NCBI RefSeq assembly: GCF_000429025.1
Contig: NZ_KE386836.1
Location: 124,001 to 188,000 of the forward strand
Direction: 5' to 3'
Length of the DNA: 64,000 nucleotides
Source of the DNA: Actinospineispora spinosispora DSM 44797
GTDB taxonomy: Bacteria; Actinomycetota; Actinomycetes; Mycobacteriales; Pseudonocardiaceae
Below, piece by piece: positions 22,861 to 41,634 of this stretch. The notes beneath the pieces were generated by a model, which saw nothing but the letters and a program-made list of their open reading frames with translations, had not been told where the DNA came from and did not search any database. Numbering within the stretch: position 1 is the stretch's first letter; each line of letters opens with the position of its first letter. A program made the translations under genes and the position numbers.

Positions 22861-22962
22861 GGGCTGTAGTGGCGATGCGCATCCCACGACGAACACCTGC
22901 ACTCACCAGGAGGGCCGTGCAGCCGCACCAGGACTGCCTGCGCATGTACAGGGTGTCTGTAA

Positions 22963-23178
22963 AGCCGGCTCCGCGAGTCTCCGAAGGAGTTCCGGCGAAG
23001 GCCGGGCAGTGAATGTCCGCAACCAACGTCGCCAACTCCGTTGGCGGCTCCCCAACCGGCCCCAAGCGCGCGCCCGGGCGAGTCCTCGAGCCTTTTTTTC
23101 TGGGAGTACCCCAGCGAGCGTTTACGCGAGCCGGGGTGGTCACAGAAAAATATCGCGCGCGAAACAGGCCCAAGCAAT
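22963..23178 (+). repeat. Dispersed structured repeat, family B, copy 1
   Basis: About 215 bp. Starts AGCCGGCTCCGCGAGTCTCC, then TTCCGGCGAAGGCCGG, GAATGTCCGCAACCA, a CGCCAAC...GTTGGCG hairpin, GGCTCCC, GCGCGC, a T-run, GGGAGTACCCC / GGGGTGGTCAC, an A-run, CGCGCGAAACAGGCCCAAG. Same order in copies 2 (30983-31194) and 3 (41331-41539, inverted). Confidence 0.85.
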
Positions 23179-23225
23179 ACAGCCTGCACCTCCACCCACC
23201 GCTAAAACCCCACAGCCCGCGCTAC

Positions 23226-23292
23226 CCAACCCAACCACCCCCGCAGGCCCCTCGTACCCGATCTACCCATCCCAACCACCCCCGCGGGCCCA
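23226..23292 (-). other. C-rich tract with G-quadruplex potential on the minus strand
   Basis: Two direct copies of CCCAACCACCCCCGC(A/G)GGCCC (from about 23226 and 23272) in a pyrimidine-rich stretch. The minus strand carries several runs of three to five G. Lies about 250 bp upstream of ftsH. Confidence 0.4.
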
Positions 23293-23529
23293 AAACTCGA
23301 GCTGACCCAACCCACCCACAGTCCCGGGAACTCAGGCGACCGGACCCACGTTATGGCTGATGACACGTATCCAGTGGACGGACCGGCATACGCTTGACAA
23401 GCTGGCCCGGTACGCTGGGTGCTCTCGGGTGTTCGCCGCCCGTTGCGACTGGTGCCGAACCCCTCGCGCGGACGGGCTTGGGCTCGGGCACGTACCAGGG
23501 AGGGTCGAGGCCCCGGAGGCCGCAACTGC

Positions 23530-26028
23530 ATGGACCGCAAGCGTCTACTCCGTAACCCGCTGACTTGGATCTTGGCGGCGTTGCTGCTCTATGTCATCTT
23601 CAGCCAGTTCTTCGACCCGACCAGGGGTTACACCCAGGTGTCGACGTCGCAGGCGCTGGGTCAGGTGACGGGCGGCAACGCGGCTTCTGTGACGGTCGAG
23701 GACAAGGAGCAACAGCTCCGCATCGACCTGAAGAATCCGATCACGGCGAGCAACGGCAACAAAGACAACATCCAGACCAAGCAGATCCTCGCCCAGTACC
23801 CCGTCGGCAGCATGCCGCAGATCTTCACCACGCTGAAGGACACCAAGGGTCTGGACTTCAACACCGAGGTTCGCCAGGAGTCCTTCCTCACCCAGATGCT
23901 CTTCTACCTGATCCCGCTGGGTCTGGTGCTGGTGCTGCTGTTCTGGATGATGAACAGCGCCCAGGGTGGCGGCAACCGTGTGCTGTCCTTCGGCAAGTCG
24001 AAGGCCAAGCAGCTGTCCAAGGACATGCCGAAGACGACGTTCGCGGACGTCGCCGGCGCTGACGAGGCCGTCGAGGAACTGCACGAGATCAAGGACTTCC
24101 TGCAGAATCCCGGTCGCTACCAGGCGCTCGGCGCGAAGATCCCGAAGGGCGTTCTGCTCTACGGTCCGCCGGGTACCGGTAAGACGCTGCTGGCCCGTGC
24201 GGTCGCCGGTGAGGCGGGGGTCCCGTTCTACTCGATCTCCGGTTCGGACTTCGTCGAGATGTTCGTCGGTGTCGGTGCCTCTCGCGTGCGTGACCTGTTC
24301 GAGCAGGCCAAGCCGAACGCGCCCTGCATCATCTTCGTCGACGAGATCGACGCGGTCGGTCGCCAGCGTGGCGCCGGCCTCGGCGGTGGGCACGACGAGC
24401 GTGAGCAGACGCTGAACCAGCTGCTCGTCGAGATGGACGGGTTCGACGCGCGCGGCGGCATCATCCTGATCGCGGCGACCAACCGGCCGGACATCCTCGA
24501 CCCGGCGCTGCTGCGCCCGGGCCGGTTCGACCGGCAGATTCCGGTGGGTGCACCCGACCTCGCTGGTCGGCGCGCGATCCTGAAGGTGCACGCGCAGGGC
24601 AAGCCGCTCGCGCCGGACGCCGACCTCGACTCGCTGGCCAAGCGCACCGTCGGGATGTCCGGCGCTGACCTGGCCAACGTGATCAACGAGGCCGCGCTGC
24701 TCACCGCCCGTGAGCACGGCACGCTGATCAACGCCGCGTCGCTGGAAGAGGCGGTCGACCGGGTGGTCGGCGGCCCGAGGCGCAAGAGCAAGATCATCTC
24801 GGAGCAGGAGCGCAAGCTCACCGCCTACCACGAGGGCGGTCACGCGCTCGCCGCGTGGGCGATGCCCGACCTGGAGCCGGTGTACAAGCTGACGATCCTG
24901 CCGCGCGGTCGTACCGGCGGGCACGCTCTGGTCGTGCCCGAGGACGACAAGGGCTTGATGACGCGTTCGGAGATGATCGGCCGCCTGGTGTTCGCGATGG
25001 GTGGCCGCTCGGCCGAGGAGCTGGTGTTCCACGAGCCGACCACCGGTGCGTCCAGCGACATCGACCAGGCGACGAAGATCGCCCGCGCGATGGTCACCGA
25101 GTACGGCATGAGCGCTCGTCTCGGTGCGGTGCGCTACGGCCAGGACCAGGGCGACCCGTTCCTGGGCCGCTCGATGGGTCATGCGCCGGACTACTCGCTC
25201 GAGGTCGCGCACGAGATCGACGAAGAGGTGCGCGCGCTGATCGAGGCCGCGCACACCGAGGCCTGGGAAATCCTGAACACCTACCGCGACGTCCTCGACG
25301 CGCTGGTGTTCGAGTTGCTGGAGGTGGAGACGCTCACCCGCAAGGACCTGGAGCGGATCTTCTCCACGGTCACCAAGCGGCCCCGGATCACCGCGTTCAA
25401 CGACTTCGGCGGGCGTACCCCGTCGGACAAGCCGCCGATCCAGAGCCCGGCCGAGCGTGCCGCCGAGCGTGGTGAGCCGTGGCCGCCCGCGCGGGAGCAG
25501 GAGCGTGAGCCCGCTCCGGTCGGCAGCGTCGGTGGCGGCCACAAGGGTCTGCCCAGCCCGAACGGTGGGCACCCCGCGCCGAACCCGAACGGTGGTCCTC
25601 CGGGTCCGCCCAACGGTGCTCTGCCCCCGTACGGCCAGCCCGGCTACCCGCCGGCCGGTGGTGGCTACCCGCCGCCGAGCCACGGGCATCAGGGCAACTC
25701 GGGCGGTCGGGACAACAACCCCGATCGACCGGCCGCTGTGCCGCCGAACTACGGTGCACCGCCCGACTGGCGTCCGGCGATCCTGCCGCAGGGCCAGGAG
25801 TGGCCGCCGCCCAATGCCCACCCGAACGGTCCGCCCAACCAGCGCGGCGAGGGTCAGGACAGCTACAACGGGCGGCCCGCTCAGGGGTCCGGAGACGGCT
25901 CGTGGGGCGAGGACGGCAGTTGGCAGGGTCCGAGGGATCCTCAGGACGACGGTCCGAGGACCGATCCGGGAACACAGTCCGGCCGCGACGGAGGCTGGCC
26001 ACAGCCCGGTCAGGACGGCGGGCGCTGA
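23530..26028 (+). CDS. ftsH: ATP-dependent zinc metalloprotease FtsH
   Basis: 832 residues from ATG 23530. Two membrane segments ([36 protein letters not shown]) flank an extracytoplasmic domain. AAA+ module: Walker A GPPGTGKT (212-219), Walker [13 protein letters not shown], second region of homology [17 protein letters not shown]. Zinc site HEGGH (434-438). A Pro/Gly/Asn/Gln-rich C-terminal tail of ~190 residues is longer than in M. tuberculosis FtsH. Degrades membrane and some soluble proteins. Head of the ftsH-folE-folP-folB-folK-DUF3180 run. Confidence 0.97.
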
Positions 26029-26058
26029 GCGCCCAAGCTGGACGGAGCCACATCGATC

Positions 26059-26682
26059 ATGAGCACAACTGAGTCGATCATGCACGCGGTCCCTCCGGAG
26101 GAGCCTGCTCGTCGGGGCTTCGACCGGGACCGCGCCGAGGCCGCGGTGCGTGAGCTCCTGCTCGCGGTCGGTGAGGACCCGGACCGGGAAGGTCTCCAGG
26201 ACACCCCACGCCGGGTGGCGAAGGCGTACGAGGAGATCTTCGGCGGGCTGTACGAGGACCCGGACGCGGTGCTCGCCAAGACGTTCGCCGAGGACCACGA
26301 CGAGCTGGTCCTGGTGCGTGACATCCCGATCTACAGCACGTGTGAGCACCACCTGGCGCCGTTCCACGGCATGGCGCACGTCGGGTACATCCCGGCGGTG
26401 GATGGCAGGGTCACCGGGCTGAGCAAGATCGCCCGGCTGGTCGACCTGTATGCGCGGCGGCCTCAGGTGCAGGAACGGCTGACCGCGCAGGTCGCCGACG
26501 CGCTGGTGCGCAAGCTGTCGCCGCGCGGGGTGATCGTGGTGGTCGAGGCCGAGCATCTGTGCATGGCGATGCGCGGTGTGCGTAAACCCGGTTCGCGGAC
26601 CGTGACGTCCGCGGTGCGGGGCCAGTTCAGGGGCAACGCGGCGTCCCGCGCGGAGGCGCTCGCGCTGATCCACGGCCGGTGA
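26059..26682 (+). CDS. folE: GTP cyclohydrolase I
   Basis: 207 residues, ATG start 30 bp after ftsH. Motifs: [17 protein letters not shown], the zinc-binding [35 protein letters not shown], and the zinc Cys in [17 protein letters not shown]. Converts GTP to 7,8-dihydroneopterin triphosphate, first step of folate synthesis. Overlaps folP by 4 bp. Confidence 0.97.
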
Positions 26683-27575
26683 CCTCCGCCGGTTCGACAC
26701 CGCTGGGCCCGCCGCCGGCCGGCCTGCCGAGGCCCGGCAGGTGCGCCCTGGTCGGGATCCTGAACGTCACGCCGGACTCGTTCTCCGACGGCGGCCGCTA
26801 CCTGGCCGCCGACGGCTCGGTGGACCGGGCGATCGAACACGGCCTGCGGATGGCACGCGACGGCGCCGACCTGGTGGACGTCGGCGGTGAGTCGACCCGC
26901 CCCGGTTCGCACCGGGTGCCCGCCGAGGAGGAGTGCCGCCGGGTCCTGCCGGTCATCCGGGGGCTCGCCGAACAGGGCGTGGCCTGCAGCGTCGACACCA
27001 CCAGGGCCGGTGTGGCGGAGGCGGCGCTCGAAGCGGGAGCGACCGTGGTCAACGACGTGTCCGGCGGCCTGGCCGACCCGGACATGGCGAAGGTCGTTGC
27101 GACCGCCGAGGTGCCGTGGATCCTGATGCACTGGCGTGGACACAGCGACCGGATGGCGGATCTCGCGGTCTACACCGACGTCGTGGCGGAGGTCCGGGAC
27201 GAGCTGCTCGCGCGCGTCGACGCGGCGGTGGCCGCCGGTGTGGATCCGGGCAACCTGGTGATCGACCCCGGGCTGGGGTTCGCCAAGCGGCCGGCGCATG
27301 ACTGGCCGCTGCTGCAGCGCCTCGACGTGTTGCTCGGCCTCGGCTTTCCCGTACTGGTCGGGGCGTCGCGCAAGAGCTTCCTCGGCCGCCTGCTCGCCGA
27401 GCCGGACGGCACGGTGCGGCCCGCACCGGGACGTGAGGTGGCGACCGCGTCCACCTCCGCGCTGGCCGCGGCCGCCGGGGCGTGGGGTGTGCGGGTGCAC
27501 GACGTGGCGGCGTCGAGCGATGCGATAGCGGTCGGCGAGGCATGGCGGACCGGACTGGCGAAAGGCGGCAGATGA
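26679..27575 (+). CDS. folP: Dihydropteroate synthase
   Basis: 298 residues, GTG start overlapping folE (GTGA). TIM barrel: [18 protein letters not shown] (pterin/PPi loop), [34 protein letters not shown] and the C-terminal RVHDVAAS. Joins pABA and hydroxymethyl-dihydropterin diphosphate; the sulfonamide target. Overlaps folB by 4 bp. Confidence 0.97.
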
Positions 27576-27934
27576 CCGACCGGATCGTGCTCACCGGGTT
27601 GCGGGTACGCGGCAACCACGGTGTGTTCGGCTACGAGAAGCGCGACGGCCAGGAGTTCGTCGTCGACCTGACGGTCTGGGCGGACCTCTCGGCGGCGGGG
27701 CGGTCCGACGAGCTGACCGACACACTCGACTACGGGGCTCTCGCCCAGACCGCGGCGGATGTGATCAGCGGGCCGTCGTTGAACCTGATCGAGGCGGTGG
27801 CCGCGCGGATCGCCGAGCGCATCCTGGAGAGCAGGGGGATCGAGCAGGTCGAGGTGACCGTGCACAAACCGTCGGCGCCGATCCCGCTCGACTTCGCCGA
27901 CGTCGCCGTCTGCATCCGGAGAACCCGGTCATGA
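27572..27934 (+). CDS. folB: Dihydroneopterin aldolase
   Basis: 120 residues from ATG 27572 (ATGA overlap with folP). T-fold protein: LTGLRVRGNHGVFGYEKRDGQ, LDYGALAQ, NLIEAVAARIAERIL, and the catalytic lysine in VTVHKPSAPIP. Makes 6-hydroxymethyl-dihydropterin. Overlaps folK by 4 bp. Confidence 0.96.
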   Translation: MTDRIVLTGLRVRGNHGVFGYEKRDGQEFVVDLTVWADLSAAGRSDELTDTLDYGALAQTAADVISGPSLNLIEAVAARIAERILESRGIEQVEVTVHKPSAPIPLDFADVAVCIRRTRS

Positions 27935-28443
27935 GCCGCGCGGTGCTGTCGCTCGGCTCGAACCTGGGGGACCGGGCGGCCTACCTGCGGCTCGCGGTGG
28001 CCGGGCTGGCCGCGCAGGCGTCGGTGGTCGCCGTGTCGCCCGTGTACGAGACGGCCCCGTGGGGTGGCGTCGAGCAGGACGACTTCCTCAACGCCATCGT
28101 GATCGCCTCCTCGCCCTCGCTCGACGAGTGGGGCTGGCTGCGGCTCGGCCAGCACCTGGAAACCGAGGCGGACCGCGTCCGGGAGGTGCGCTGGGGGCCG
28201 CGGACGCTGGACGTCGACGTGGTCACCGTGGACGGCCCGGACGGGCCCGTGTTCAGTTCCGATCCGGAGCTGGTGCTGCCGCACCCGGGGACGGCCGAGC
28301 GCAACACGGTTCTGCGGCCCTGGCTGGACATCGAGCCCGACGCGGTACTTCCGGGCACCGGGCCGGTGTCGGCGCTGCTCGCGGCGTTGGGCGAGGACGG
28401 GATGCACAGACTGGACGAGCTGAGCCTGGTGGTCGACCGGTGA
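27931..28443 (+). CDS. folK: 2-amino-4-hydroxy-6-hydroxymethyldihydropteridine pyrophosphokinase
   Basis: 170 residues, ATG inside the folB stop. HPPK motifs: LSLGSNLGDRAAYLRLAV, SPVYETAPWGGVEQDDFLNAIV, RWGPRTLDVDVVTVDG and LVLPHPGTAERNTVLRPW. Pyrophosphorylates the pterin for FolP. Overlaps the DUF3180 gene by 4 bp, continuing the operon. Confidence 0.96.
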   Translation: MSRAVLSLGSNLGDRAAYLRLAVAGLAAQASVVAVSPVYETAPWGGVEQDDFLNAIVIASSPSLDEWGWLRLGQHLETEADRVREVRWGPRTLDVDVVTVDGPDGPVFSSDPELVLPHPGTAERNTVLRPWLDIEPDAVLPGTGPVSALLAALGEDGMHRLDELSLVVDR

Positions 28444-28907
28444 AAGCGACGTCGTTGCGCGAGCTGCTGCCGGTGTTCGTGGTCGTCGGGCTGACCGTGT
28501 ACCTGCTGATCAGGCTCACCTACGCGAATCTGCCGCCGCTGCCGACGTTGGCCGGGGTGACCCTGCTGGTGCTCGCGGTGGCCGAGGCGATCCTGGGCTA
28601 CTACCTGAAGGCGCGGATCGAGCGTAAGCCCGGGACGGAGCCGGTCCAGCCGCTGCAGGCGGCTCGCGCGGTGGCGCTGGCCAAGGCTTCGGCTGTGGCC
28701 GGGACCGTGATGGCCGGGGTGTGGGCCGGGGTGCTCGGCTATCTGCTGCCTCGGCTCAGCGACTTGGTGGCCGCCGCCGAGGACGCGCCCGGGGCGTTGG
28801 TCGGCCTGATCAGCGCTGTGGCGTTGGTGGCCGCCGCCTTGTACCTGCAGCACTGCTGCCGTACGCCTCTGGACTCGGACGACGAGAACGCGCCACACCG
28901 GCGCTGA
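28440..28907 (+). CDS. DUF3180 membrane protein (Rv3605c-like)
   Basis: 155 residues from GTG 28440, overlapping the folK stop (GTGA). Four hydrophobic segments: LLPVFVVVGLTVYLLIRL; LAGVTLLVLAVAEAILGYYL; a central one around VAGTVMAGVWAGVLGYLL; and ALVGLISAVALVAAALYLQ. Always at the end of the actinobacterial fol operon; function unknown. A very long palindrome follows its stop. Confidence 0.88.
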   Translation: MKATSLRELLPVFVVVGLTVYLLIRLTYANLPPLPTLAGVTLLVLAVAEAILGYYLKARIERKPGTEPVQPLQAARAVALAKASAVAGTVMAGVWAGVLGYLLPRLSDLVAAAEDAPGALVGLISAVALVAAALYLQHCCRTPLDSDDENAPHRR

Positions 28908-28920
28908 TCCCTCGGGACGA

Positions 28921-28988
28921 CTGTGCACACCCACGTGCTGTGTCGCACATGTCCGGACATGTGCGACACAACACGTGGGTGTGCACAG
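28921..28988. terminator. 68-bp near-perfect palindrome after the fol operon
   Basis: Two 34-bp arms with no loop and a single mismatch; left arm begins CTGTGCACACCCACGTG. 13 bp after the DUF3180 stop. Its sequence is unrelated to the GTGAGTG class but its form and position are the same; probably ends the fol operon transcript. Confidence 0.78.
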
Positions 28989-29074
28989 TGCGCCGGTGGG
29001 GTCCGCGGGGTTGGCTGAGAGGTGCGCCCGGCTTGCTGAAGAGGCCGGAGGGGACAAGCGCCCGGTTGTACTAA

Positions 29075-29089
29075 TAGGCTATTCCGCAA
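29075..29089 (+). promoter_or_regulatory. Candidate -10 element for a leaderless prsW transcript
   Basis: TAGGCT at 29075-29080 in an AT-rich patch (GTACTAATAGGCTATTCC), 8 nt before the ATG; transcription would begin at or just before the start codon. No clear -35 was assigned. Confidence 0.35.
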
Positions 29090-30606
29090 TGTCGTTCATG
29101 CAGCCACCGGCGGGGCCGTTCGGACCGCCCCCGGGACCGCTCGGGGGCGGAGCTCTGACCGCGACCGGTCAGTACCGGCTGCGCGCTCGCCGGCAGCGGC
29201 GCGGAGTGCTCGGCACCGTGTTCGGGCTCGTGCTGCTGGGTGTGTGCGGGCTGATGGTGCTCGGCATCATCGCGTTCCAGGTCAGCACGGCGGGTGTCAT
29301 CGTGGGCACCCTGGGCGCGTTGTTGCCGGTCGGGCCGGTGGTTGCGGCGTTCCTGTGGCTGGACCGGTGGGAGCCGGAGCCGCCCCGGTTGCTGCTCATC
29401 GCGTTCCTGTGGGGCGCCTGCTTCGCCACCCTCGCCGCGCTGGTGCTCAACAGCAGCGCCGAGGCCGCGACGGCGGCCGCGATCGGGGACGACAACGCGG
29501 GTGCGTTCGGCGCCGTGTTCGTCGCGCCCTGGGTCGAGGAGGCCATGAAGGGCGCGTTCCTGCTGGGGCTCGTGCTGTTCCGCCGACGTGAGTTCGACGG
29601 TGTGCTGGACGGCGTCGTCTACGCGGGGCTCGTCGCGGCGGGGTTCGCCTTCACCGAGAACATCCTCTACCTGGGTCAGGCGTTCTCCTCCGGCGCCGCT
29701 GACGGTGGCCAGGGCGGCGGGGTGTTCGCGGTGCTGATCATGCGCGGGGTGTTCTCGCCGTTCGCGCATCCACTGTTCACCGCCATGACCGGCATCGGGC
29801 TCGGGTTGGCGACCAACGCGCGCAACGCGTTCATTCGCATCGGGGCACCGGTCGGCGGGTATCTGTTCGCGGTGTTCCTGCACGCGCTGTGGAACGCGTC
29901 GGCGTCGCTGGGGGACGGCACCGCGCTCGCCGCCGTGTACCTGATGGTCATGTTGCCGATCTTCGTGTTCGTCGTCTTCCTCGTGCTCTACCAGCGTCGA
30001 CGTGAGCAGCGGATCACCGCGGCCGAGCTGCCGGGCATGGCGGAGGCCGGGTGGATCGCACCCAGTGAGGTTCGGCTGCTGGAGAGCCTGGCCGGACGCA
30101 GCGGCTGGCTGCGCGCGGTGCGCCGCCGTTCCGGTGCGAACGTCGCCAAGATGGTCGCCGAGTACCAGGCCGCGGTGACCGAGCTGGCGATCCTGCGGCA
30201 CCGGATGGCGCGCGGCTCGCTCGGGCCGCACGCGCGCGAGTGGCACGACGAGCTGCTGGAAGACGTGCTGGTCAGTCGGGCTCGTGCGGTCGGGTCGCCG
30301 GACGCGCTGCACGCGGCATGGGGACGGCGCACGCCGCCACCTGGCTGGTCACCGCCGCCTCCGGGCCCGGTGGGACCTCGGCACGCCGCGCCGCCGCACG
30401 CCGGGCAGCACCGGCCGGCCGACCACCACCTGCGCGGTGCTCCGCCCGCGCCGGGTCAGCGCATGCCACCGGGCCAGGAGCAGCAGTTCCCTCCCCGGCA
30501 GGCCCAGACGCCGTACCCGCCCCGCCAGCAGGGCCCACCACCTCAGGGCCGCCCGCCCTACCCCGGCCAGCCACCGGTCCCCCCACCCCGCCAGGGCCCC
30601 CAGTAA
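29089..30606 (+). CDS. PrsW-family intramembrane metalloprotease
   Basis: 505 residues from ATG 29089. A Pro/Gly-rich N-tail is followed by about eight membrane segments. PrsW motifs: APWVEEAMKGAFLLG (Glu-Glu), GFAFTENILYL, FSPFAHPLFTAMTGIGLG and FLHALWNAS. The cytosolic C-terminal third has a helical part and a ~130-residue Pro/Gln/Gly-rich tail. PrsW proteins cut membrane proteins such as anti-sigma factors; the target here is unknown. Position matches Rv3604c. Confidence 0.88.
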   Translation: MSFMQPPAGPFGPPPGPLGGGALTATGQYRLRARRQRRGVLGTVFGLVLLGVCGLMVLGIIAFQVSTAGVIVGTLGALLPVGPVVAAFLWLDRWEPEPPRLLLIAFLWGACFATLAALVLNSSAEAATAAAIGDDNAGAFGAVFVAPWVEEAMKGAFLLGLVLFRRREFDGVLDGVVYAGLVAAGFAFTENILYLGQAFSSGAADGGQGGGVFAVLIMRGVFSPFAHPLFTAMTGIGLGLATNARNAFIRIGAPVGGYLFAVFLHALWNASASLGDGTALAAVYLMVMLPIFVFVVFLVLYQRRREQRITAAELPGMAEAGWIAPSEVRLLESLAGRSGWLRAVRRRSGANVAKMVAEYQAAVTELAILRHRMARGSLGPHAREWHDELLEDVLVSRARAVGSPDALHAAWGRRTPPPGWSPPPPGPVGPRHAAPPHAGQHRPADHHLRGAPPAPGQRMPPGQEQQFPPRQAQTPYPPRQQGPPPQGRPPYPGQPPVPPPRQGPQ

Positions 30607-30746
30607 CCACACCCGAGACACGCTGAGATCGCCGCCAGGCAAGACGCTGTGCACCCGACCACGGCGCGGTCGGCCATAGCAAGCCACTCAACCCGGCCCC
30701 ACCAGCCTGCGAATGGGTTGGCGGAGACATCCGAGCCGGCTGCGGC

Positions 30747-30990
30747 GATGTCGGCTCCGCGAGTGTTGGAAGGGGCCGGTGTAGGCACTCAAGCCGGCCA
30801 CGGCGATGTCGGTTCTGCGGGTGTTCGGAGGGGGTCGGCGTAGGTACCCGAGCTGGCGACGGCGAAGTCGGTTCCGCGAGTCTCCGAGGGGGTCGGCGTA
30901 GGTACTCAAGTCGGCCATGGCGAGGTCGGTTCCGCGAGTCTCTGAAGGGGTCGGCGAAGGCACCCAAGCCGGCCACGGCAAAGTCGGCTC
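30747..30990 (+). repeat. 58-59-bp tandem repeat array (about 4 units plus the family B end)
   Basis: Units begin with GATGTCGGCTCCGCGAG-like sequence at 30747, 30805, 30864, 30922 and 30980 (steps of 58, 59, 58 and 58 bp). Each carries TCGGYTCYGCGRGTS, then GGGGTCGGCGTAGG and CAAGCCGGCCACGGC-like parts. The last unit is also the first part of family B copy 2, so the array looks like an amplification of that end. Confidence 0.85.
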
Positions 30991-31194
30991 CGCGAGTCTC
31001 CGAAGGAGTTCCGGCGAAGGCCGGCGCACTGAATGTCCGCAACCAAACCGCCCAGCTACCAGGGCGGCTCCCAAGGTGGGCACAAGCGCGCCCCAGCCGA
31101 GGAACGAGGCTTGTTTTTCCGGGAGTACCCCCGACGGCGAAGCCGAGGGGGTGGTCACGGAAAAACTCCGCGCGGAACAGGCCCAAGAGACAAG
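30983..31194 (+). repeat. Dispersed structured repeat, family B, copy 2
   Basis: About 212 bp with the same order of parts as copy 1: GTCGGCTCCGCGAGTCTCC, TTCCGGCGAAGGCCGG, GAATGTCCGCAACCA, a CGCCC...GGGCG hairpin, GGCTCCC, T-run, CGGGAGTACCCCC / GGGGGTGGTCACGG, A-run, CGCGCGGAACAGGCCCAAG. The loop sequence differs from copies 1 and 3. Confidence 0.85.
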
Positions 31195-31295
31195 CATCAC
31201 CCTGGGTGGCGGGTTGTGGGCGGCTGCCTCTAGCGTTCTGCGCACATCGTCTGGTACCCGCCGCGCGGGACTGGAACGACCTCAGGAGCAGATCC

Positions 31296-32210: not shown

Positions 32211-33106
32211 GCACCCCCACCTCGACCCGCCCGTACACGGCGGGTCAGCTGACCGTGCACCGCGACCCGGCGAAGCTCACCGAGCTGACCACGACGCTCC
32301 GCTCGGCCGGCCGGAAGATCAACTTTGTGCCCACGATGGGTGCGTTGCACGCAGGTCACATCGAGCTCATGCGGCACGCCCGCAGAGCCCCCGGGTCCGG
32401 GGTCACCGTCGTGTCGATCTTCGTGAACCCGCTGCAGTTCGGCGCCGGTGAGGACCTGGACAAGTACCCGCGCACGTGGGAGCACGACCTCGACGTGTGC
32501 CGCGCCGAAGGCGTCGAGCTGGTGTTCGCCCCGACCGTCGAGCACATGTACCAGCCGGGCGCCGACATCACCGTCGGCGCCGGTGCGCTGGGCGACGAGC
32601 TGGAGGGCGCCACCCGGCCGGGGCACTTCCGAGGTGCGCTGACCGTGTGTACGAAGCTGTTCGGCATCGTCCGCCCGCAGCTGGCCTACTTCGGTGAGAA
32701 GGACTACCAGCAGCTCGTGCTGATGCGCCGCATGGTCGAGCAGCTGAACCTCGGCGTCCAGATCGTCGGCGTCCCCACGGTGCGTGAACCGGACGGTCTC
32801 GCGTTGTCCTCGCGCAACGTCTACCTGGAACCCGACCAGCGCCGCAGCGCCGTCGCGCTGTCCGCGGCGCTGACCGCCGCCAAGCACGCCGGGTCCGGTG
32901 GCGCCGAGGCGGCGATGGACGCGGCGAAGCAGGTCCTTGCGACCGAACCGGGCATCCAGGTCGACTACCTCGAGCTGCGCGACCCGGCACTGGGTCCCGC
33001 GCCGGAGTACGGCCTGGCCCGGCTGCTGGTCGCGGCCAAGGTCGGCAGGACCCGTCTGATCGACAACATCGGATTGACCCTGGGCACCCCGGCGAGGGAG
33101 TACTGA
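32207..33106 (+). CDS. panC: Pantothenate synthetase
   Basis: 299 residues, ATGA overlap. [16 protein letters not shown] (HxGH signature), [43 protein letters not shown] and [10 protein letters not shown] (KMSKS-like). Condenses pantoate and beta-alanine using ATP. Its stop overlaps panD by 1 bp. Confidence 0.97.
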
Positions 33107-33516
33107 TGATCCGCACGATGCTGAAGTCCAAGATCCACCGGGCCACCGTCACCCAGGCCGACCTGCACTACGTCGGTTCGGTGACCGTCGACCAGGACCT
33201 GATGGACGCCTCCGACCTGCTGTCCGGCGAACAGGTCACGGTCGTGGACATCACCAACGGCGCGCGCTTGGAGACCTACGTCATCCCCGGTGAGCGGGGC
33301 AGTGGGGTCATCGGCATCAACGGCGCGGCCGCGCACCTCGTGCACCCCGGTGACCTGGTCATCCTGATCGCGTACGGCGCCATGGACGACGCCGAGGCCC
33401 GGACCTACCAGCCGCGCGTCGTCTTCGTCGACGCGGACAACCGGGTGACCGACCTCGGCGGCGACCCCGGCCACGCCCCCGAGGGCTCCGGCTTGCTCAC
33501 CAGCTCAGTGCGCTGA
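33106..33516 (+). CDS. panD: Aspartate 1-decarboxylase (pyruvoyl)
   Basis: 136 residues; starting at ATG 33106 puts the self-processing Gly24-Ser25 bond (YVGSVTVD) at the family position. Also [28 protein letters not shown]. Makes beta-alanine for PanC. Overlaps coaX by 1 bp. Confidence 0.96.
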
Positions 33517-34373
33517 TGCTGCTCTGCGTCGACGTCGGCAACACCCAGATTTCCCTCGGGCTCTACGCCACCGACGCCGAGCAGTCCGGTAGCGACTCCG
33601 AAGACCTGGTTCGCGCGCCGTTGCTGCGTCAGTGGCGTATGCGGACCGACCCCCGGATGACCGCGGACGAGCTCGACGTCGCGTTCAACGGTCTGCTCGG
33701 TGACTATGCCGACCATGTCACCGGGATCGCCGCACTGTCCACCGTGCCGCTGCTGCTGCGCGAACTGAGGCTGCTCGCGGAACGAAAGCGGGCGAGCATC
33801 CCGGCTGTGATCGTGGAGCCGCGCGTGCGTACCGGTGTCCCGGTGCTGGTCGACAACCCCAAGGAGGTCGGCGCGGACCGGGTGGTCAACACTCTCGCCG
33901 CGCACCGCCTGTTCGGGACCGCGTGCGTCGTCGTCGACTTCGGCACCTCGACCAACATCGACGTCGTCTCACCGCGCGGTGAGCTGCTCGGTGCCGCCAT
34001 CGCACCCGGCATCGAGATCTCGATGGAAGCGCTCACGACCAGGGCCGCGCAGCTGACCACGGTGGAGCTGGCGCGCCCACGATCGGCCATCGGCAAGAAC
34101 ACCGTGGAATGTGTCCAGGCAGGCGTCCTGTTCGGCTTCACCGGCCAGGTGGACGGCCTGGTCCGGCGGATCATCGTGGAACTCGCCTCCGGCGACACCA
34201 CCGGCTACAAGATCGACCCCGACGAGGTCACCGTGCTGGCGACCGGCGGCCTGGCCCCCCTGATCGTCGACGAATCAGAAACGATCACCCAACACGTAGA
34301 GGACCTGACCCTCCTAGGCCTACGCCTGGTCTACCTACGCAACGCACGGCATCCCTCCCGCGTAAAACCCTGA
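33516..34373 (+). CDS. coaX: Type III pantothenate kinase
   Basis: 285 residues. ASKHA-fold kinase: DVGNTQISLGLY (phosphate-1), PKEVGADRVVNTLAAH, VVDFGTSTNIDVV (phosphate-2), GAAIAPGIEISMEAL, and VLATGGLAPLI. First step of CoA synthesis. Last gene of the DUF2520-panC-panD-coaX operon, followed by a palindromic element. Confidence 0.95.
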   Translation: MLLCVDVGNTQISLGLYATDAEQSGSDSEDLVRAPLLRQWRMRTDPRMTADELDVAFNGLLGDYADHVTGIAALSTVPLLLRELRLLAERKRASIPAVIVEPRVRTGVPVLVDNPKEVGADRVVNTLAAHRLFGTACVVVDFGTSTNIDVVSPRGELLGAAIAPGIEISMEALTTRAAQLTTVELARPRSAIGKNTVECVQAGVLFGFTGQVDGLVRRIIVELASGDTTGYKIDPDEVTVLATGGLAPLIVDESETITQHVEDLTLLGLRLVYLRNARHPSRVKP

Positions 34374-34380
34374 GGCAGCT

Positions 34381-34446
34381 CGCACAGAGGCTCTCCACGC
34401 CGCACAGAGGCCGGAGCCTCTGTGCGGCGTGCGCTCGCTCTGTGCG
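34381..34446. repeat. Palindromic element, CGCACAGAGGC class, copy 2
   Basis: Inner stem ACGCCGCACAGAGGC / loop CGGA / GCCTCTGTGCGGCGT (34397-34430), outer half-copies CGCACAGAG (34381-34389) and CTCTGTGCG (34438-34446). Between coaX and lysS. Confidence 0.75.
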
Positions 34447-34499
34447 CGCTAGCCGGGCCATGGGTTAACCGGGTTTTGTGGGCCAGTACCGTTTTGCGG

Positions 34500-36011
34500 G
34501 TGACGAATGATGGACCGCCCAGTGTTGTTGACCCTGAATCCTCGCTGCCTGAGCAGATGCAGGTGCGCCGGGCCAAGCGGACGGCGATGCTCGACGCGGG
34601 AGCACAGCCGTACCCGGTAGTTCTGCCGCGCACCCATTCACTCAGTGAGGTGCGTGAGGCCCATCAGGGGCTCGAACCGGACACCAAGACGGGTGACGTG
34701 GTCGGGGTGGCGGGGCGCGTGGTTTTCCTGCGCAATACCGGCAAGCTCTGTTTCGCGACGCTCCGCGCCGGTGAAGGTACCGAGCTCCAGGCAATGTTGA
34801 GTCTTGCCGGCGTCGGTGAGGACGAGTTGGCCAGATGGAAGTCACAGGTCGATCTGGGTGACCACGTATTCGTGCACGGTGAGGTGATCACCTCACGGCG
34901 GGGTGAACTGTCGGTCTTCGCCGATGAATGGGCGATGGCCGCGAAGTCCCTTCGTCCACTACCGGTTGCGCACAAGGAACTGTCCGAAGAGACCAGGGCA
35001 CGGCAGCGATACGTCGACCTCATCATGCGTCCGCAGGCGCGCGACACCGTACGGATGCGCGCCGAGGTCATGCGTGCGCTTCGTCAGACGCTCTTCACCG
35101 ACGGATATGTCGAAGTGGAGACGCCCATGTTGCAGCTGTTGCATGGTGGGGCGACGGCGCGGCCTTTTGTTACCCACTCCAACGCACTCGATACTGAACT
35201 GTACTTGCGGATCGCGCCCGAGCTCTACCTCAAGCGCGCGGTCGTCGGCGGTATCGAGCGCGTCTTCGAGATCAACCGGAACTTCCGTAACGAGGGCATT
35301 GACTCGAGTCACTCGCCCGAGTTCGCGATGCTCGAGGCGTATGAGGCGTACGGCAGCTATGACACGATCGCCGAGCTCACCCAATCGCTTGTCACGTCCT
35401 GTGCGCGGGCGGCGTTCGGTTCGACGGTCGTGCGGCACGTCGACGGCACCGAGCACGACCTGGGCGGCAAGTGGCGCGAACTGACCCTCTACCAGGCTGT
35501 TTCCGAGGTTCTCGGTACCGAGGTAACCCTGGACACCCCGGCGCCGACGCTGCGTGGCTTTGCCGAAGAGCGTGATGTTCCGCTGAAGGACAACGCTTCC
35601 GCCGGTGAGATTGCTCTTGAGCTCTTCGAAAAACTGGTTGAACACACATTGATCGAGCCGACGTTCGTTCGCGATTATCCGGTTGAAGTAAGGCCGCTGA
35701 CCAGGCAACATCGCGATGAACCCCGGCTCGCCGAAGCATGGGACCTGTTCGTCTTCGGTATGGAGTTGGCAACCGGATACTCCGAACTCGTCGACCCCGT
35801 TGTGCAGCGGGAACGGCTGGAAGCGCAGTCCAGACTGGCCGCGGCGGGCGACGAGGAGGCCATGCAGGTCGACGAGGACTTCCTGCGCGCCTTGGAATAC
35901 GGAATGCCCCCGAGCGGCGGGATGGGAATGGGTATCGACCGGCTGCTGATGACGCTGACCGGTCTCGGTATCCGGGAGACGATCCTTTTTCCGCTGGTCC
36001 GCCCGGAATGA
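34500..36011 (+). CDS. lysS: Lysyl-tRNA synthetase (class II)
   Basis: 503 residues from GTG 34500; no Shine-Dalgarno is visible and TACCGT lies 7 bp upstream, so the mRNA may be leaderless. OB-fold anticodon domain ([23 protein letters not shown]) then class II core: motif 1 with [18 protein letters not shown], motif 2 [20 protein letters not shown], motif 3 [17 protein letters not shown]. More A/T at third codon positions than its neighbours, also seen in lsr2. Confidence 0.96.
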
Positions 36012-36029
36012 GTGAGGTTTAGCTGTCGC

Positions 36030-36074
36030 GCCTCGACACATCCACGGAATCAGGGCTATTCTGAGTGTCGAGGC
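36030..36074. promoter_or_regulatory. Inverted repeat GCCTCGACAC ... GTGTCGAGGC upstream of lsr2
   Basis: 10-bp perfect arms separated by 25 nt (36030-36039 and 36065-36074), in the 150-bp gap between lysS and lsr2. It may terminate lysS or regulate lsr2; the long loop argues against a simple terminator. Confidence 0.4.
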
Positions 36075-36161
36075 TCGCCGGCAGTCCAGGAGAGGTAGTT
36101 CCGGACGGGTTGTTCGATTGAGCCTGACTATCACTCAATTATCAGCTGGAGGGCTGCCAAG

Positions 36162-36506
36162 GTGGCACAGAAGGTCACGGTTTCACTCATTGACGACCTC
36201 GATGGCGACAAGGCCGAGGAGACCGTTGAGTTCGGGCTCGACGGCAAGAACTACGAGATCGACCTGTCCTCCAGCAATGCCAGCAAGCTGCGCGATGCAC
36301 TCGCCGATTTTGTTGCCGCTGCCCGCCGCCCCGGTGGCAGGCGCCGTTCCGGCGGAGCCGCGGTAGCGGCGGCCGCCCGCCGCCCCGCGGTGGACCGCGA
36401 GCAGAACCAGGCAATTCGGGACTGGGCGCGCAAGCGCGGCATGAAGGTCTCCGACCGCGGTCGCATTCCGGCGGACGTTCTGGAGAGCTACCACCAGGAA
36501 AACTGA
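36162..36506 (+). CDS. lsr2: Lsr2 nucleoid-associated protein
   Basis: 114 residues, GTG start with CTGGAGGG upstream. N-terminal dimerisation domain ([32 protein letters not shown]), a basic linker, and a C-terminal AT-hook-like domain with [21 protein letters not shown]; the RGR lies in the DNA minor-groove contact. H-NS-like silencer of AT-rich, often horizontally acquired DNA. Between lysS and clpC as in mycobacteria. Confidence 0.96.
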
Positions 36507-37112
36507 CCGGCCTTTTCCGCGGAATCGGGTGCGAGGTGTTGTCCCCGCTGACCGTCAAGTGTCTTGGCGTGGGTGGGCGGTATCAACCCCCGGCTGACGC
36601 CGGCCTCGCACTGCTAGGGGCTGTCCGGCGTTCGGGGGCGAGGTTTCAGGGTTGACACCACCCACCCACGCCAAGTGCGGGCCAGGATCGCGGGGACGGG
36701 GAAGTCCTGCGCGCCCAACCGGCCCCGGCTGCGCCGCGTCCCTCGGGAGCACGGTCGCTCGGGGACGTGCCTGGGTGACTTCGCAGAGCGTGGTGTTGTG
36801 TCGCAGACACTGCAGCGTGTGCGACGCGACGCGAACCTCTGCGAGGTGGGCTGGAAGGTCTGCGAGGTGGGCTTGGCGGGGCTCCCGGAGGGAGTTGCGC
36901 GTGGGGCCTGCGATGTTCACCACCAGCGTAAGTCGTAGGGTGGTGAGCGGTATACCGGGCGGAATGTGGTCCGGTTGGTTGGTGTTGTAGCAGTTTGAGT
37001 GGGTTGAGCACGCGCACATGGCAGCGCCGACCTAGCTTCGGCCGATACAGTGGACATACGGTGCCGGTACGCGGGAGCGGACCGACACAGCTCAGTAGTC
37101 AGGGGAGTGCGC
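36507..37112. other. 0.6-kb gene-free region: family C copy 1 and the clpC leader
   Basis: Family C copy 1 occupies 36541-36862. The remaining ~250 bp lead into clpC, with AGGGGAG before the start codon. No gene supported; open frames on both strands here have no counterpart in the second copy of the repeat. Confidence 0.75.
36541..36862 (+). repeat. Dispersed structured repeat, family C, copy 1
   Basis: About 320 bp, matched in inverse orientation by 47271-47580. First half: stem CTTGGCGTGGGTGGGCGGT (36563-36581) with its partner ACCACCCACCCACGCCAAG (36657-36675) around a GCCTCGC/GCGAGG inner stem. Second half: GGCCAGGATCGCGGGG, then a GTCGCAGAC...CTGCAG...TGCGAC hairpin between CGCAGA and TCTGCGAGG. 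Confidence 0.85.
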
Positions 37113-39647
37113 ATGTTCGAGAGGTTCACCGACCGCGCGAGGCGGGTGGTTGTCCTGGCCCAAGAAGAGGCCAGGATGCTCAACCACAACTACATCGGCA
37201 CCGAGCACATCCTCTTGGGCTTGATCCACGAGGGTGAGGGCGTCGCCGCGAAGGCGCTGGAGTCTCTGGGCATTGCGCTCGAAGGCGTCCGGCAGCAGGT
37301 CGAGGAGATCATCGGCCAGGGCCAGCAGGCGCCGAGCGGCCACATCCCCTTCACGCCACGGGCCAAGAAGGTGCTGGAGCTGTCACTGCGCGAAGCGCTG
37401 CAGCTCGGCCACAACTACATCGGCACCGAGCACATCCTGCTCGGCCTGATCCGCGAGGGTGAAGGTGTCGCGGCCCAGGTGCTGGTCAAGCTCGGCGCCG
37501 ACCTGAACAGGGTCCGCCAGCAGGTCCTCCAGCTGCTGTCCGGTTACCAGGGCAAGGAGCCGGCGGAGGCCAGCGGCGGTCGCGGCGAGGGCACGCCGTC
37601 CAGCTCGCTGGTGCTCGACCAGTTCGGTCGCAACCTGACCCAGTCGGCACGTGAGGGCAAGCTCGACCCGGTCATCGGCCGGGAGAAGGAAATCGAGCGG
37701 GTCATGCAGGTGCTGTCCCGGCGCACCAAGAACAACCCGGTGCTGATCGGCGAGCCCGGTGTCGGTAAGACCGCGGTCGTCGAGGGCCTTGCCTCCATGG
37801 TCGTCAAGGGCGAGGTGCCCGAGACGCTGAAGGACAAGCAGCTCTACACGCTCGACCTCGGTTCGCTGGTCGCCGGTTCCCGCTATCGCGGTGACTTCGA
37901 GGAGCGCCTCAAGAAGGTGCTCAAGGAGATTCGCACCCGCGGCGACATCATCCTGTTCATCGACGAGATCCACACCCTGGTGGGTGCGGGTGCCGCCGAG
38001 GGCGCGATCGACGCGGCGTCCATCCTGAAGCCGATGCTGGCTCGCGGTGAGCTGCAGACGATCGGTGCCACCACGCTCGACGAGTACCGCAAGTACGTCG
38101 AGAAGGACCCGGCTCTGGAGCGTCGTTTCCAGCCGATCCAGGTGGGCGAGCCGAGCGTCACGCACACCATCGAGATCCTCAAGGGTCTGCGCGACCGCTA
38201 CGAGGCGCACCACCGGGTCACGATCACCGACCCGGCGCTGGTCGCGGCGGCGACGCTGGCCGACCGCTACATCAACGACCGCTACTTGCCGGACAAGGCG
38301 ATCGACCTGATCGACGAGGCCGGCGCGCGTATGCGCATCCGCCGCATGACCGCACCGCCGGACCTGCGGGAGTTCGACGAGAAGATCGCCAACGTCCGTC
38401 GGGACAAAGAGTCGGCGATCGACGCGCAGGACTTCGAGCGGGCCGCGCACCTGCGTGACTCGGAGAAGCAGCTGCTCGCGCAGAAGTCGGAGCGGGAGAA
38501 GCAGTGGAAGTCCGGTGACCTGGATGTGGTCGCCGAGGTCGACGACGAGCAGATCGCCGAGGTTCTGGCGAACTGGACCGGTATCCCGGTCTTCAAGTTG
38601 ACCGAGGAGGAGACCACCCGGCTGCTGCGCATGGAGGACGAGCTCCACAAGCGCATCATCGGCCAGGAAGAGGCGGTCAAGGCCGTCTCGCAGGCGATCC
38701 GCCGTACCCGCGCCGGTCTGAAGGACCCGAAGCGCCCGTCCGGCTCGTTCATCTTCGCCGGCCCGTCCGGTGTCGGTAAGACCGAGCTGTCCAAGGCGCT
38801 GGCGAACTTCCTGTTCGGCGAGGACGACGCGCTCATCCAGATCGACATGGGTGAGTTCCACGACCGTTACACCGCGTCGCGGCTGTTCGGTGCTCCTCCC
38901 GGCTACGTCGGCTACGAAGAGGGCGGGCAGCTCACCGAGAAGGTGCGCCGCAAGCCGTTCTCCGTGGTGCTGTTCGACGAGATCGAGAAGGCCCACCAGG
39001 AGATCTACAACACGCTCCTGCAGGTGCTGGAGGACGGTCGCCTGACCGACGGTCAGGGCCGCACGGTGGACTTCAAGAACACCGTGATCATCTTCACGTC
39101 GAACCTCGGTACCCAGGACATCTCCAAGGCCGTCGGCCTCGGGTTCGTCCAGGGCAACGACACCGGCTCGAACTACGAGCGGATGAAGACCAAGGTCAAC
39201 GACGAGCTGAAGAAGCATTTCCGGCCGGAGTTCCTGAACCGCATCGACGACATCGTGGTGTTCCACCAGCTCACCCAGGACCAGATCGTGTCCATGGTGG
39301 ACCTGATGGTCACCAGGGTCGAGGGTCAGCTGCGGAACAAGGACATGGCGATCGAGCTCACCCCGAACGCGCGCTTGCTGCTGGCACGCCGCGGGTTCGA
39401 CCCGGTGCTGGGTGCGCGGCCGCTGCGTCGCACCATCCAGCGCGAGATCGAGGACCAGCTGTCGGAGAAGATCCTGTTCGGCGAGATCGAGCCGGGTCAG
39501 ATCGTTCTCATCGACGTCGAGGGCTTCGACCCGGAGGACACGACGACGAACGGGGCCGACAAGGCCAAGTTCACCTTCAAGGGTCAGCCGAAGCCCGCGG
39601 TGAACGTGCCCGACGCGGTGCCCGCCGGTCTGTCCGAAGAGAAGTAA
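37113..39647 (+). CDS. clpC: ATP-dependent Clp protease ATP-binding subunit ClpC
   Basis: 844 residues from ATG 37113 with AGGGGAG upstream. Two N-terminal Clp repeats ([40 protein letters not shown]). D1: Walker [14 protein letters not shown], Walker [15 protein letters not shown]-type coiled-coil middle region. D2: Walker [15 protein letters not shown], Walker [12 protein letters not shown]. Unfolds proteins for ClpP; essential in mycobacteria as ClpC1 and the target of several natural antibiotics. Confidence 0.97.
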
Positions 39648-39664
39648 CCAGCCAGGCGAACACG

Positions 39665-39698
39665 AGCCGGCCCGGACCAGCGATGGTCCGGGCCGGCT
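39665..39698 (+). terminator. clpC terminator hairpin
   Basis: 15-bp perfect arms AGCCGGCCCGGACCA with a GCGA loop, 17 bp after the clpC stop, followed by TTCGCTGTG. A second, bidirectional palindrome follows at 39715. Confidence 0.88.
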
Positions 39699-39714
39699 TC
39701 GCTGTGTACGGACA

Positions 39715-39760
39715 CTCGTGAGTGTTGAGTATGGCTATGGCCATACTCAACACTCACGAG
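39715..39760. terminator. Long palindrome, GTGAGTG class, copy 4
   Basis: 21-bp perfect arms CTCGTGAGTGTTGAGTATGGC with a 4-nt loop, overlapping the last codons of the convergent GAF regulator. Almost the same sequence as 13986-14031 more than 25 kb away. Confidence 0.78.
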
Positions 39761-41241
39761 GTCAGGCGGTCGGCGCGCGCGGTGATCGTGGCGTGGCGGG
39801 GGTCGGACAATGGGAGCGACGCGGCCAGGCGCTCGGCCAGCTCCAGGTCGTCGGCTCCGGTGTCGGTCTCGGCGACCAGCCACATCGCCTCGGCGTCGCC
39901 GGAGTCCAGCACAGCCCGCCGTATCGTGGCGGCGAGCAGCTCGCGTTCCTCCGTCACAGCGGGTGCTTCCGAGCCGGGACGCAGCTCACCCCGGTAGCGG
40001 CTCGCGGCCGAGCGGACCTCACCGGCCAGCAGCTCGCTCCTGACCTGCAGCCAGTCGGCGGTCAGGTCGGCCTGCAGCCGGTACGGGCTGGAACGGACCA
40101 CCGCCGCGCCGAGCTGAGCGCGCAGCCGGTGGACCTCGGCGCGCGCGGTCACCGGGTTGCCCCGTTCGCCGTAGACGCCGGTCGCCAGCTGCTCGGCACT
40201 CACCCCGTCCGGGTGCAGCGCGAGCAGGGTGAGCATGTCGGCGTGGCGCTGCGTGAGACGTATCCGTCGTCCGTTCAGCTCGGCGATCGGAGCGTGGCCG
40301 AGGAACCGCAGCTCCAGGTGCGCCGCCGCTGTCGTCACCAGCGGGGTTCTGCGTCGTCCCGAACGCAGCAGGTAGCCCTCGCCCAGCTCCTCCAGTACCG
40401 CGACCTGCCCGTTCGGCAGTGTCACCGTGCCGTTCTCACCGGGGAGCTCGAGTCGCGGCGTCGGCAGCCAGTTGTGCGGTTCGCTCGCCAGCACGCGCCC
40501 CGACCTGGTGACCAGCGCGCCGTACTCGCCACCCAGGGCGGCGAGCTGAGGTGCGCAGCGGGTGCGCAGCAACTCGTCCCTCGCCGCCATCCGCGCCCGC
40601 AGCTGCCCTTCGGCAAGCCTTGCCGCCGCCTTGACCAGCGCCATCGTCGAGGGGTGGAAGCTGTGCACCGGACCGGTCACGTCGACCACGCCGATGATCC
40701 GCCCGGTGTCCGGATCGTGCACCGGGCAGGCCGCGCACGTCCATACCGAGTAGGCGCGCACGAGGTGCTCCGCCGAATGGATCTGCACCGCGAGGTTCTC
40801 GGCGAGCGCGGTGCCCATCGCGTTGGTGCCCATCGCATCTTCGGACCAGCGGGTGCCCTCGATCAGCCCGACCTTGTCCGCCGTGGTCAGCACGCCGCTC
40901 TGGCCTTCGCGCCACAGGATGTGGCCGTGCTCGTCGGTCACCACCATCATGTGCAGCGCCTCGTCGGCGGTGGCCACGAGGGTCTCGCGCAACAGCGGCA
41001 GCGTCTCCGCGAGCGGATGCTCCGCACGCAGGTCGGCCACGTCCCGGCTGTCGAACACCGCGGGCGGCCCGGCGCCGCGCTCCGGATCCACCCGAGCGGC
41101 GAGACTGCGCCGCCACGACTCGGACACGACGGGCCGCGGCTGCTGCGGCACCGGCGCACCACTGAGCACCGCGTCCCGAATCCGGGCGAGCAGCTGCGCC
41201 CGAGCAACCGGATCCGCGGCCGACGTCGTTGACAGGCCCAT
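39754..41241 (-). CDS. GAF-domain transcriptional regulator of aldehyde metabolism
   Basis: 495 residues from ATG 41241 (CGGGAGGGA upstream). The open frame continues 82 residues further through repeat family B, which was rejected. N-terminal helix pair ([15 protein letters not shown]), a GAF domain ([19 protein letters not shown] ... [18 protein letters not shown] ... [19 protein letters not shown]) as in AcoR-type activators, but no sigma54 AAA+ domain. The C-terminal part looks like an OmpR/SARP winged helix ([26 protein letters not shown]). Divergent from the aldehyde dehydrogenase, so probably its activator. Confidence 0.85.
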
Positions 41242-41330
41242 GCACGTCCCTCCCGGCGGCCCCAAAGACCGAGCCGAGTACCCCCACCATTCTGCGTGCG
41301 ACATGTGACCGCGGCAACTGTCTCGTTCTT

Positions 41331-41539
41331 TTGGGCCTGTTTCGCGCGGAGTTTTTCTGTGACCACCCCCTCGCTTCGCTTCGCTTCGGGGGTACTCCCA
41401 GAAAAACAAGCCGACTTCGTCGGCCGAGCGCGCGCTTGTTGTCACCCTGGGAGCCGCCGTCCGGCTGGGGAGCCTGGTTGCGGACACTCACTACGCCGGC
41501 CTTCGCCGGAACTCCTTCGGAGACTCGCGGAGCCGGCTC
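41331..41539 (-). repeat. Dispersed structured repeat, family B, copy 3 (inverted)
   Basis: Reverse complement of copies 1 and 2 with all parts in order: CTTGGGCCTGTTTCGCGCG-like end at 41331, T-run/GTGACCACCCCC/GGGGGTACTCCC/A-run, CCGAC-TTC-GTCGG, GCGCGCGCTTGTTG, CCTGGGAGCCGCC, GGTTGCGGACACTCACTAC, GCCGGCCTTCGCCGGAACTCC, GAGACTCGCGGAGCCGG. The loop carries CGCTT repeated three times. Confidence 0.85.
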
Positions 41540-41563
41540 AGCCGTGGTCCCGTCTGCCCACAC

Positions 41564-41619: not shown

Positions 41620-41634
41620 CGTCTTGGCTTCAAG

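Follow-up and report, generated by a model that had tools for sequence, protein, structure and literature searches.

Three structured repeats probably belong to a large, lineage-restricted family of non-autonomous mobile elements with interchangeable hairpin domains

Three copies of a short, structured repeat lie within the 64,000-nt stretch of DNA analysed here (the window; 69.7% G+C), which is part of a 9.54-Mb, 73-contig, high-GC assembly. What are these copies, and what could have placed them where they are? An earlier reading of the letters alone (the sequence-only reading) had listed three options: a non-autonomous mobile element, a structured RNA, or a hairpin-ended element moved in trans. 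That the three copies are related was borne out by pairwise BLAST (79-84% identity, E ~1e-41 to 2e-62) and by a covariance model that found all of them, with scores of 96-121 bits. The repeat unit, termed the B element, runs from AAGYYGGCTCC to CGCGCGRAACAGGCC and measures ~207 bp (203-214 bp in 32 copies); its G+C content of 65-66%, versus ~70% for the window, makes it slightly less GC-rich than its surroundings but not AT-rich. A sister form, B', first seen as the left half of inverted dimers, has the same plan as B with other stems. The copies in the window (Wa, Wb and Wc) and their immediate surroundings are the following, the dimer that includes Wa spanning ~22571 to 23173:

22571-22820 (-): left half of the Wa dimer, a sister element B' (5' domain Ib, 3' domain IIb) whose outer end faces left; match to the B' model R2 at G000:C6:146657-146799
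22961-23173 (+): B element copy Wa, with 5' domain Ia and 3' domain IIa in the TATCGCGCGCGAAACAGG variant; right half of the inverted dimer
30711-31006 (+): 58-bp tandem array preceding Wb, ~5 copies, whose unit takes in the B element's own 5' end; Wb matches the array by BLAST
30980-31186 (+): B element copy Wb, found by BLAST and covariance model
41331-41540 (-): B element copy Wc, found by BLAST and covariance model
41564-41624 (no strand assigned): 22-bp tandem array on the 5' side of Wc, with a CCGACTCGCGG-type unit
41634-41669 (+): upstream block of gene 41710-43233, kept beside Wc and conserved in congeners without the element
47030-47160 (-): B' element without a B partner; R2 match G000:C6:171030-171160

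A genome-wide search by BLAST and covariance model, as proposed in the sequence-only reading, revealed more than 100 dispersed copies. The BLAST-type search with Wc gave 45 matches, 40 of them long. Model R1, which represents the 3' half of the element and was built from 32 copies, gave at least 126 matches at an E-value of 0.01 or better and 103 at 71 bits or more (150 of 7941 candidates scored), and model R2, which represents B', gave at least 34 B' copies above 114 bits (150 of 10005 candidates scored). For analysis, we took ~3 kb, or less near contig ends, around 100 of the 103 strong R1 matches, leaving out C9:327144, C2:369503, and C16:98797; a profile search followed by removal of duplicates yielded 100 distinct B copies, 90 of which were complete enough to align. 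All 90 aligned copies are distinct (nearest-neighbour identity: median 93%, best 99.5%), and the lack of any identical pair means that there is no sign of very recent movement. It is probable that Wa, Wb and Wc are members of a non-autonomous mobile repeat family that is large and restricted to one lineage.

Each element comprises a 5' hairpin domain and a 3' domain, the latter a long hairpin closed by CGCGCG/CGCGCG, joined at CAAGCGCGCG. In the RNAalifold consensus of 32 copies, the helices GGCTCC/GGAGTT and CCGGC/GCCGG make up the 5' domain, and the CGCGCG/CGCGCG helix of the 3' domain encloses a small hairpin and a long stem around TTTTTCTGGGAGTACCCC / GGGGTGGTCACAGAAAAA; two weaker long-range helices of this consensus are absent from the fold of 90 copies. 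The stem formed by a T-run and an A-run around GGGAGTACCCC / GGGGTGGTCAC, noticed in the sequence-only reading, is real, and among the internal mismatches said to fall at similar positions, two recur at identical places as unpaired columns of the consensus. Compared with dinucleotide shuffles, the 3' halves of the three window copies fold better (z of -2.97, -3.94, and -3.71), and the 5' halves show no clear excess folding (z of -1.04, -1.50, and -0.53). The element is also non-coding, in line with the earlier claim that no reading frame is shared. A 62-nt stretch present in 46 of the 90 copies has entropies of 0.59/0.39/0.51 by codon position, the third position not being biased, and the same stretch is 63 nt long in 37 further copies, which shifts the frame; one frame of the 62-nt stretch lacks stops in 43 of the 46 copies. 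Short, non-coding, dispersed, and strongly structured, B resembles a MITE in these respects, with a shuffle-based folding excess in the 3' half only.

Such conserved folding could point to a structured RNA with a cellular job (an mRNA 3' end, a leader, or a small RNA), multiplied and kept by selection, in which case the two domains would be RNA folds. The stems are indeed kept across divergent types: in the 32 copies, 99.2% of the cells in the consensus pairing are paired, versus 38-51% with the partners slid, and 19 cells show two-sided changes, versus 5.3 in shuffles. Among the 90 copies, the pair cells comprise 2749 Watson-Crick, 294 G.U, 8 A.C, and 8 other combinations, and the two-sided changes in the long stem are of the types U-A to C-G and G-C to A-U. 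Other features of the same alignments argue against an RNA. The number of further pair types in the 32 copies is below that of shuffles (498 of 500 shuffles were as high or higher), and the minority G.U and A.C variants of the 90 copies reveal no strand preference (8 and 7 events, respectively), so that neither strand looks selected. Since G.U and A.C are equally frequent, covariation alone is no proof of RNA here; additional correction of the palindromes as DNA would be expected to give equal numbers. In addition, the element has no Rfam match at gathering score, and neither does any other part of the window, whereas a neighbouring RNase P RNA, an SRP RNA, and one tRNA at the loci did match. 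Matches at permissive E-values, sought for Wa and seven loci, were rejected: the element gives only weak sub-gathering matches to mir-675 and RUF6-5 (for the latter, in L088, 25 bits with a gathering score of 70 and an E-value of 0.38), and a palindrome in the spacer region of L105 reaches 33 bits with mir-3047, for which the gathering score is 53. We regard a structured RNA as unlikely; the location of the copies, described below, also bears on it.

The two domains are interchangeable. We distinguished three types of 5' domain and four of 3' domain, found in seven pairings that exchange at CAAGCGCGCG:

5' domain Ia: CTCCGAAGGAG..CCGGCGAAGGCCGG
5' domain Ib: GCCCGAAGGGG..CCGCCGAAGGCGG
5' domain Ic: CCCCGCAAGGGG..CAGTGCGAAGCACTG
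3' domain IIa: seen in Wa in its TATCGCGCGCGAAACAGG form
3' domain IIb: TTTTTCCGAGTGG
3' domain IIc: AAAATCCTAAAG
3' domain IId: AAATTTCCGGTTGCGG

From 150 candidate junctions, after removal of 10 (6 without a recognisable 3' domain, 2 likely chance matches, and 2 tandem-array units), we counted 91 Ia+IIa, 27 Ib+IIb, 7 Ic+IIa, 5 Ia+IIc, 5 Ic+IId, 4 Ib+IId, and a single Ib+IIa (L102). Stem sequences are replaced between types and the hairpins are retained. Within IIa, each of the small-hairpin variants h1-h3 combines with every one of the four loop classes (93 of 100 copies assigned), indicating that pieces a few tens of bases apart were reassorted. Modules in several combinations, with some sequences in tandem, correspond to a BOX-type organisation. 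At L064, near position 2004 (-), a B'-like 5' domain leads into a 3' hairpin of yet another kind, which may be an additional 3' domain type.

This free assortment of hairpin and loop variants over a few tens of bases, together with the replacement of stems, the tandem arrays, and the other palindromic families mixed in beside B, is compatible with spread in which no dedicated enzyme takes part: palindromic intergenic repeats would undergo gene conversion and template switching during replication, and hairpins would thereby be made, corrected, and shuffled. Such a process does not readily explain the fixed 3' end and the strong preference for positions next to stop codons, which need a specific end, and the ~100 unlinked sites need transfer between non-homologous loci. 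Enzyme-free spread is therefore rather improbable in our judgement.

Many copies have close neighbours on their 5' side. In 22 of the 100 copies, a sister half with a type-Ib 5' domain lies on the left, forming an inverted dimer; 21 of these left halves carry a IIb 3' domain and one, in the inverted pair at L102, carries IIa, the sole instance of Ib with IIa that was seen. The outer end of the left half is ~330-425 bp away and matches the inverse of the right end (GGCCTGTTYCGCGCG). An outward copy of the end with at most 2 edits occurs within 1.4 kb on the left of 23 of the 100 copies (chance, 0.04 per flank). The remaining 78 copies, including the left half of the L102 pair, are termed solos; no terminal inverted repeats are evident in them.

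The 5' flanks of many copies hold other repeats as well, including a 15-bp array, 22-bp and longer arrays, and palindromic or structured families. Tandem arrays detected by TRF lie within 300 bp on the 5' side of 36 of the 78 solos, versus 4 of 78 on the 3' side, and 28 solos have an array at most 30 bp from their 5' end, whereas none has one so near the 3' end. Under a strict test, 5' arrays built of left-end pieces were found in 7 of 73 copies, with none on the 3' side and 0.35 expected, which is a weak signal. At L078:1178-1403, three extra left-end hairpins of the element stand 5' of a full copy with an exact 75-bp spacing.

Several of the neighbouring repeat families also stand alone in the window. 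A structured dispersed repeat with 27-bp inverted arms (TTGGCGTGGTCGGGCGG...) around an inner hairpin lies at 36540-36701 (+) and 47418-47579 (-); these two are 90-91% identical to a consensus that also occurs upstream of several B copies. A palindromic repeat of the CTGCGTCGCAGATG type occurs at 28934-28975, 36778-36848, and 47270-47342, and upstream of B in L099, L110, and L029. The near-perfect 44-bp palindrome at 43607-43650 and 58703-58746 is the same as the spacer of many B'-B dimers. Separately, dense 18/21-bp tandem repeats fill 51119-51494 within the predicted gene 50819-52333 (+).

The placement of the copies is polar: the 3' end lies on or beside stop codons, or a short way from gene starts, and the repeats accumulate on the 5' side. 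Using genes called with a simple custom codon-usage gene caller, we found that 97 of 100 copies overlap a called gene by at most 30 bp and that the median distance from the 3' end to the next called gene is 34 bp. Of the 75 solos flanked by called genes on either side, 59 have the 3' end as the one nearer a gene (medians of 22 bp for the 3' end versus 157 bp for the 5' end; p 6e-7). Of the 47 copies whose 3' neighbour is convergent, 23 end on its stop codon or no more than 2 bp from it, and 33 end no more than 20 bp away; among stop codons facing the 5' end, only 4 of 66 are as close as 2 bp (p 2e-7). When the gene on the 3' side runs in the same direction, the distance is at most 20 bp in 10 of 48 cases and at most 60 bp in 25. 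The 23 abutted stops comprise 18 TAG, 3 TAA, and 2 TGA, versus 41 TAG, 16 TAA, and 81 TGA for the other genes called in the same loci, some of which overlap, i.e. TAG or TAA in 21 of 23 versus 57 of 138 (p 6e-6). Two copies end beside RNA genes: the 3' end of an RNase P RNA gene (L099:1091-1489) is ~12 bp, and that of an SRP RNA gene (L105:1615-1711) ~3 bp, from the element's 3' end. The closeness of 3' ends to genes, these two included, would suit a structured RNA, but the orientation of the right-hand gene is even (48 same, 47 opposite), which speaks against it.

Beyond the 3' end, the first 11 bases are A- or purine-rich in 82 flanks (this excludes 12 flanks that share a long tail and 6 copies whose flank could not be used), and past these 11 bases the insertion sites share no common target core. 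Target-site duplications, which the sequence-only reading suggested looking for, did not materialise: at no length from 2 to 10 bp did they clearly exceed shuffled pairs (20 dimers and 69 solos). TA is present on both sides in only 4 of 68 solos; together with the lack of target duplication, this means that classical cut-and-paste transposition is not shown.

That a copy can be an insertion is seen at Wc, which sits between the divergent genes 39754-41241 (-) and 41710-43233 (+). Among 62 genomes of the genus, 36, this one among them, have DNA that matches gene 41710-43233, and 29 of the 35 congener matches were compared at this locus. Gene 39754-41241 was found adjoining in 24 of the 29, one match being too partial to measure; the start-to-start gap, estimated from tblastn ends, is 468 bp here versus 76-310 bp in 23 congeners. 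The covariance model found no element in the 29 congener loci. Given these shorter gaps, the conservation of block 41634-41669, which is probably the promoter of gene 41710-43233, and the lack of the element in congeners, the composite at Wc is an insertion that spared the block. The search for an empty site in related genomes was thus successful at the one locus tested, where Wc is an insertion relative to the orthologous gap.

The family appears confined to this lineage. With stricter filters and an E-value of 1e-4, R1 gave no match in 35 genomes of the genus and 24 of the order, 59 relatives in all, and R2 none in 61 congeners. A loose motif pattern matched 66 times here and not at all in the 61 congeners, and its reversed control gave 0. 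A 20-mer core, invariant in the 32 aligned copies, had no match in viral contigs and 2 in GTDB contigs, neither supported by the covariance model; a loose pattern matched 56 viral contigs, again without support from the covariance model in any. BLAST of Wc against plasmid and phage records gave no match. Diverged forms whose stems differ could escape every one of these sequence searches. A search of open-licence PMC text found no description of these repeats. Absence from the relatives examined is a further argument against a structured RNA kept for a cellular role.

If B is mobile, which enzyme could move it? As the sequence-only reading had claimed for the vicinity of the copies, no transposase was found among the genes translated around seven copy-bearing loci. 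Outward-facing copies 1.8 and 3.3 kb apart (L160, and L072 with L016) enclose genes assigned by Pfam to FxsA, alpha/beta hydrolase, enoyl-CoA hydratase, and MgtC; in the L072-L016 interval, the scan covered all but a 236-bp stretch and a partial frame at the start of L016. Among the genes around the seven loci and these four enclosed genes, no autonomous element with matching ends was seen. Genome-wide, we searched for Y1 transposases, reverse transcriptases, TnpB, IS110-type recombinases, and Y2 (IS91) transposases, the Y2 search being uninformative as no control was positive. TnpB was not found in the assembly (controls positive), and with neither TnpB nor Y1 found, a TnpB omega-RNA or a remnant of IS605 type has no support.

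Three rival mechanisms can be weighed with these searches. Repeats of the REP/BIME type, moved by a REP-associated Y1 transposase, would resemble B in their intergenic hairpins, inverted pairs, stop-codon-adjacent positions, and lack of target duplications, but the assembly has 0 matches to PF01797, which was detected in 6 of 14 control genomes, and this origin is very unlikely. A retrotransposed, SINE-like RNA would account for a constant 3' end and a 5' flank that varies in extent and content. The assembly has, however, 0 matches to PF00078 (3 of 14 controls positive), and none of the 100 copies is clearly 5'-truncated, as those that match the profile only in part are variant types or contain Ns; we consider such an origin exceedingly improbable. 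Lastly, B could be a minimal IS110-type element with the fold as its bridge RNA, since a structured non-coding unit, variable loops, and the lack of target duplication are also features of IS110. The genome does contain one IS110-type recombinase match (L205, 3.5 kb), but at this sole locus no sequence resembles the element (a best profile score of 0.4 bits with an E-value of 0.76; one 26-bp BLAST match to Wb, E 7e-4) and the insertion sites have no common target core beyond the 11 bases, making a bridge RNA highly doubtful.

The best reading is, with fair probability, that B elements are non-autonomous mobile repeats of the BOX/MITE kind, because there are more than 100 dispersed copies, an empty site at one locus, no conserved frame, and no transposase around seven loci. 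Copies would spread as DNA, recognised via their hairpins or ends. A candidate enzyme acting in trans may prefer A-rich or TA-containing targets, which in a GC-rich genome would largely be TAG/TAA stop codons and ribosome-binding sites, and new types may arise through recombination or template switching between copies. Going further, B might represent a new sort of lineage-specific mobile system, in which a two-domain folded strand with cassette-like halves has its constant 3' end joined by a putative enzyme to TAG/TAA stops and gene starts. Every such event would add new repeats on the 5' side, and the choice of target may lie in one exchangeable domain. We view this extension as speculative and quite unlikely. 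Among the options of the sequence-only reading, the non-autonomous mobile element is therefore the best supported, a structured RNA is neither shown nor excluded, and the movement of a hairpin-ended element in trans is one that we infer, no partner having been found.

The family offers a natural experiment on the invasion of a bacterial genome by structured repeats: no relative examined carries it, its modules, junction, dimers, and sites can be read directly, and three enzymes with positive controls (Y1, reverse transcriptase, and TnpB) were not found. What moves such repeats and why they stop at stop codons become testable questions. The same holds for whether compensatory stem changes come from DNA-level processes or RNA selection, which bears on claims of RNA structure based on covariation in repeats.

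How does B compare with known systems? Like MITEs, B is short, non-coding, strongly folding, and dispersed, and it is an insertion relative to an empty site at one locus; unlike MITEs, its solos have no evident terminal inverted repeats, the outer ends of dimers being inverse matches, no target duplication was found, no autonomous partner with matching ends was found, and the elements are not AT-rich. REP/BIME repeats, which are associated with RAYT transposases, have hairpins, inverted pairs, stop-codon-adjacent positions, and no target duplication, all of which are shared by B; the differences are the lack of a detectable Y1 transposase in the genome and the longer, two-domain unit of B. The BOX repeats of Streptococcus pneumoniae are described (PMC3049150) as 125 elements of 422 modules in one strain, with terminal inverted repeats and causing duplications. 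B resembles BOX in its ~100 interspersed copies, its modules with one type in tandem, and its strong predicted folding; it differs in its GC-rich host, in the exchange of two hairpin domains as blocks at one junction, in its inverted dimers, in the lack of target duplication, and in its placement at TAG/TAA stop codons. On these grounds, modular pneumococcal BOX (PMC3049150) would seem to be the nearest described kind, alike in plan and different in ends, target duplication, domain exchange, and stop-codon placement.
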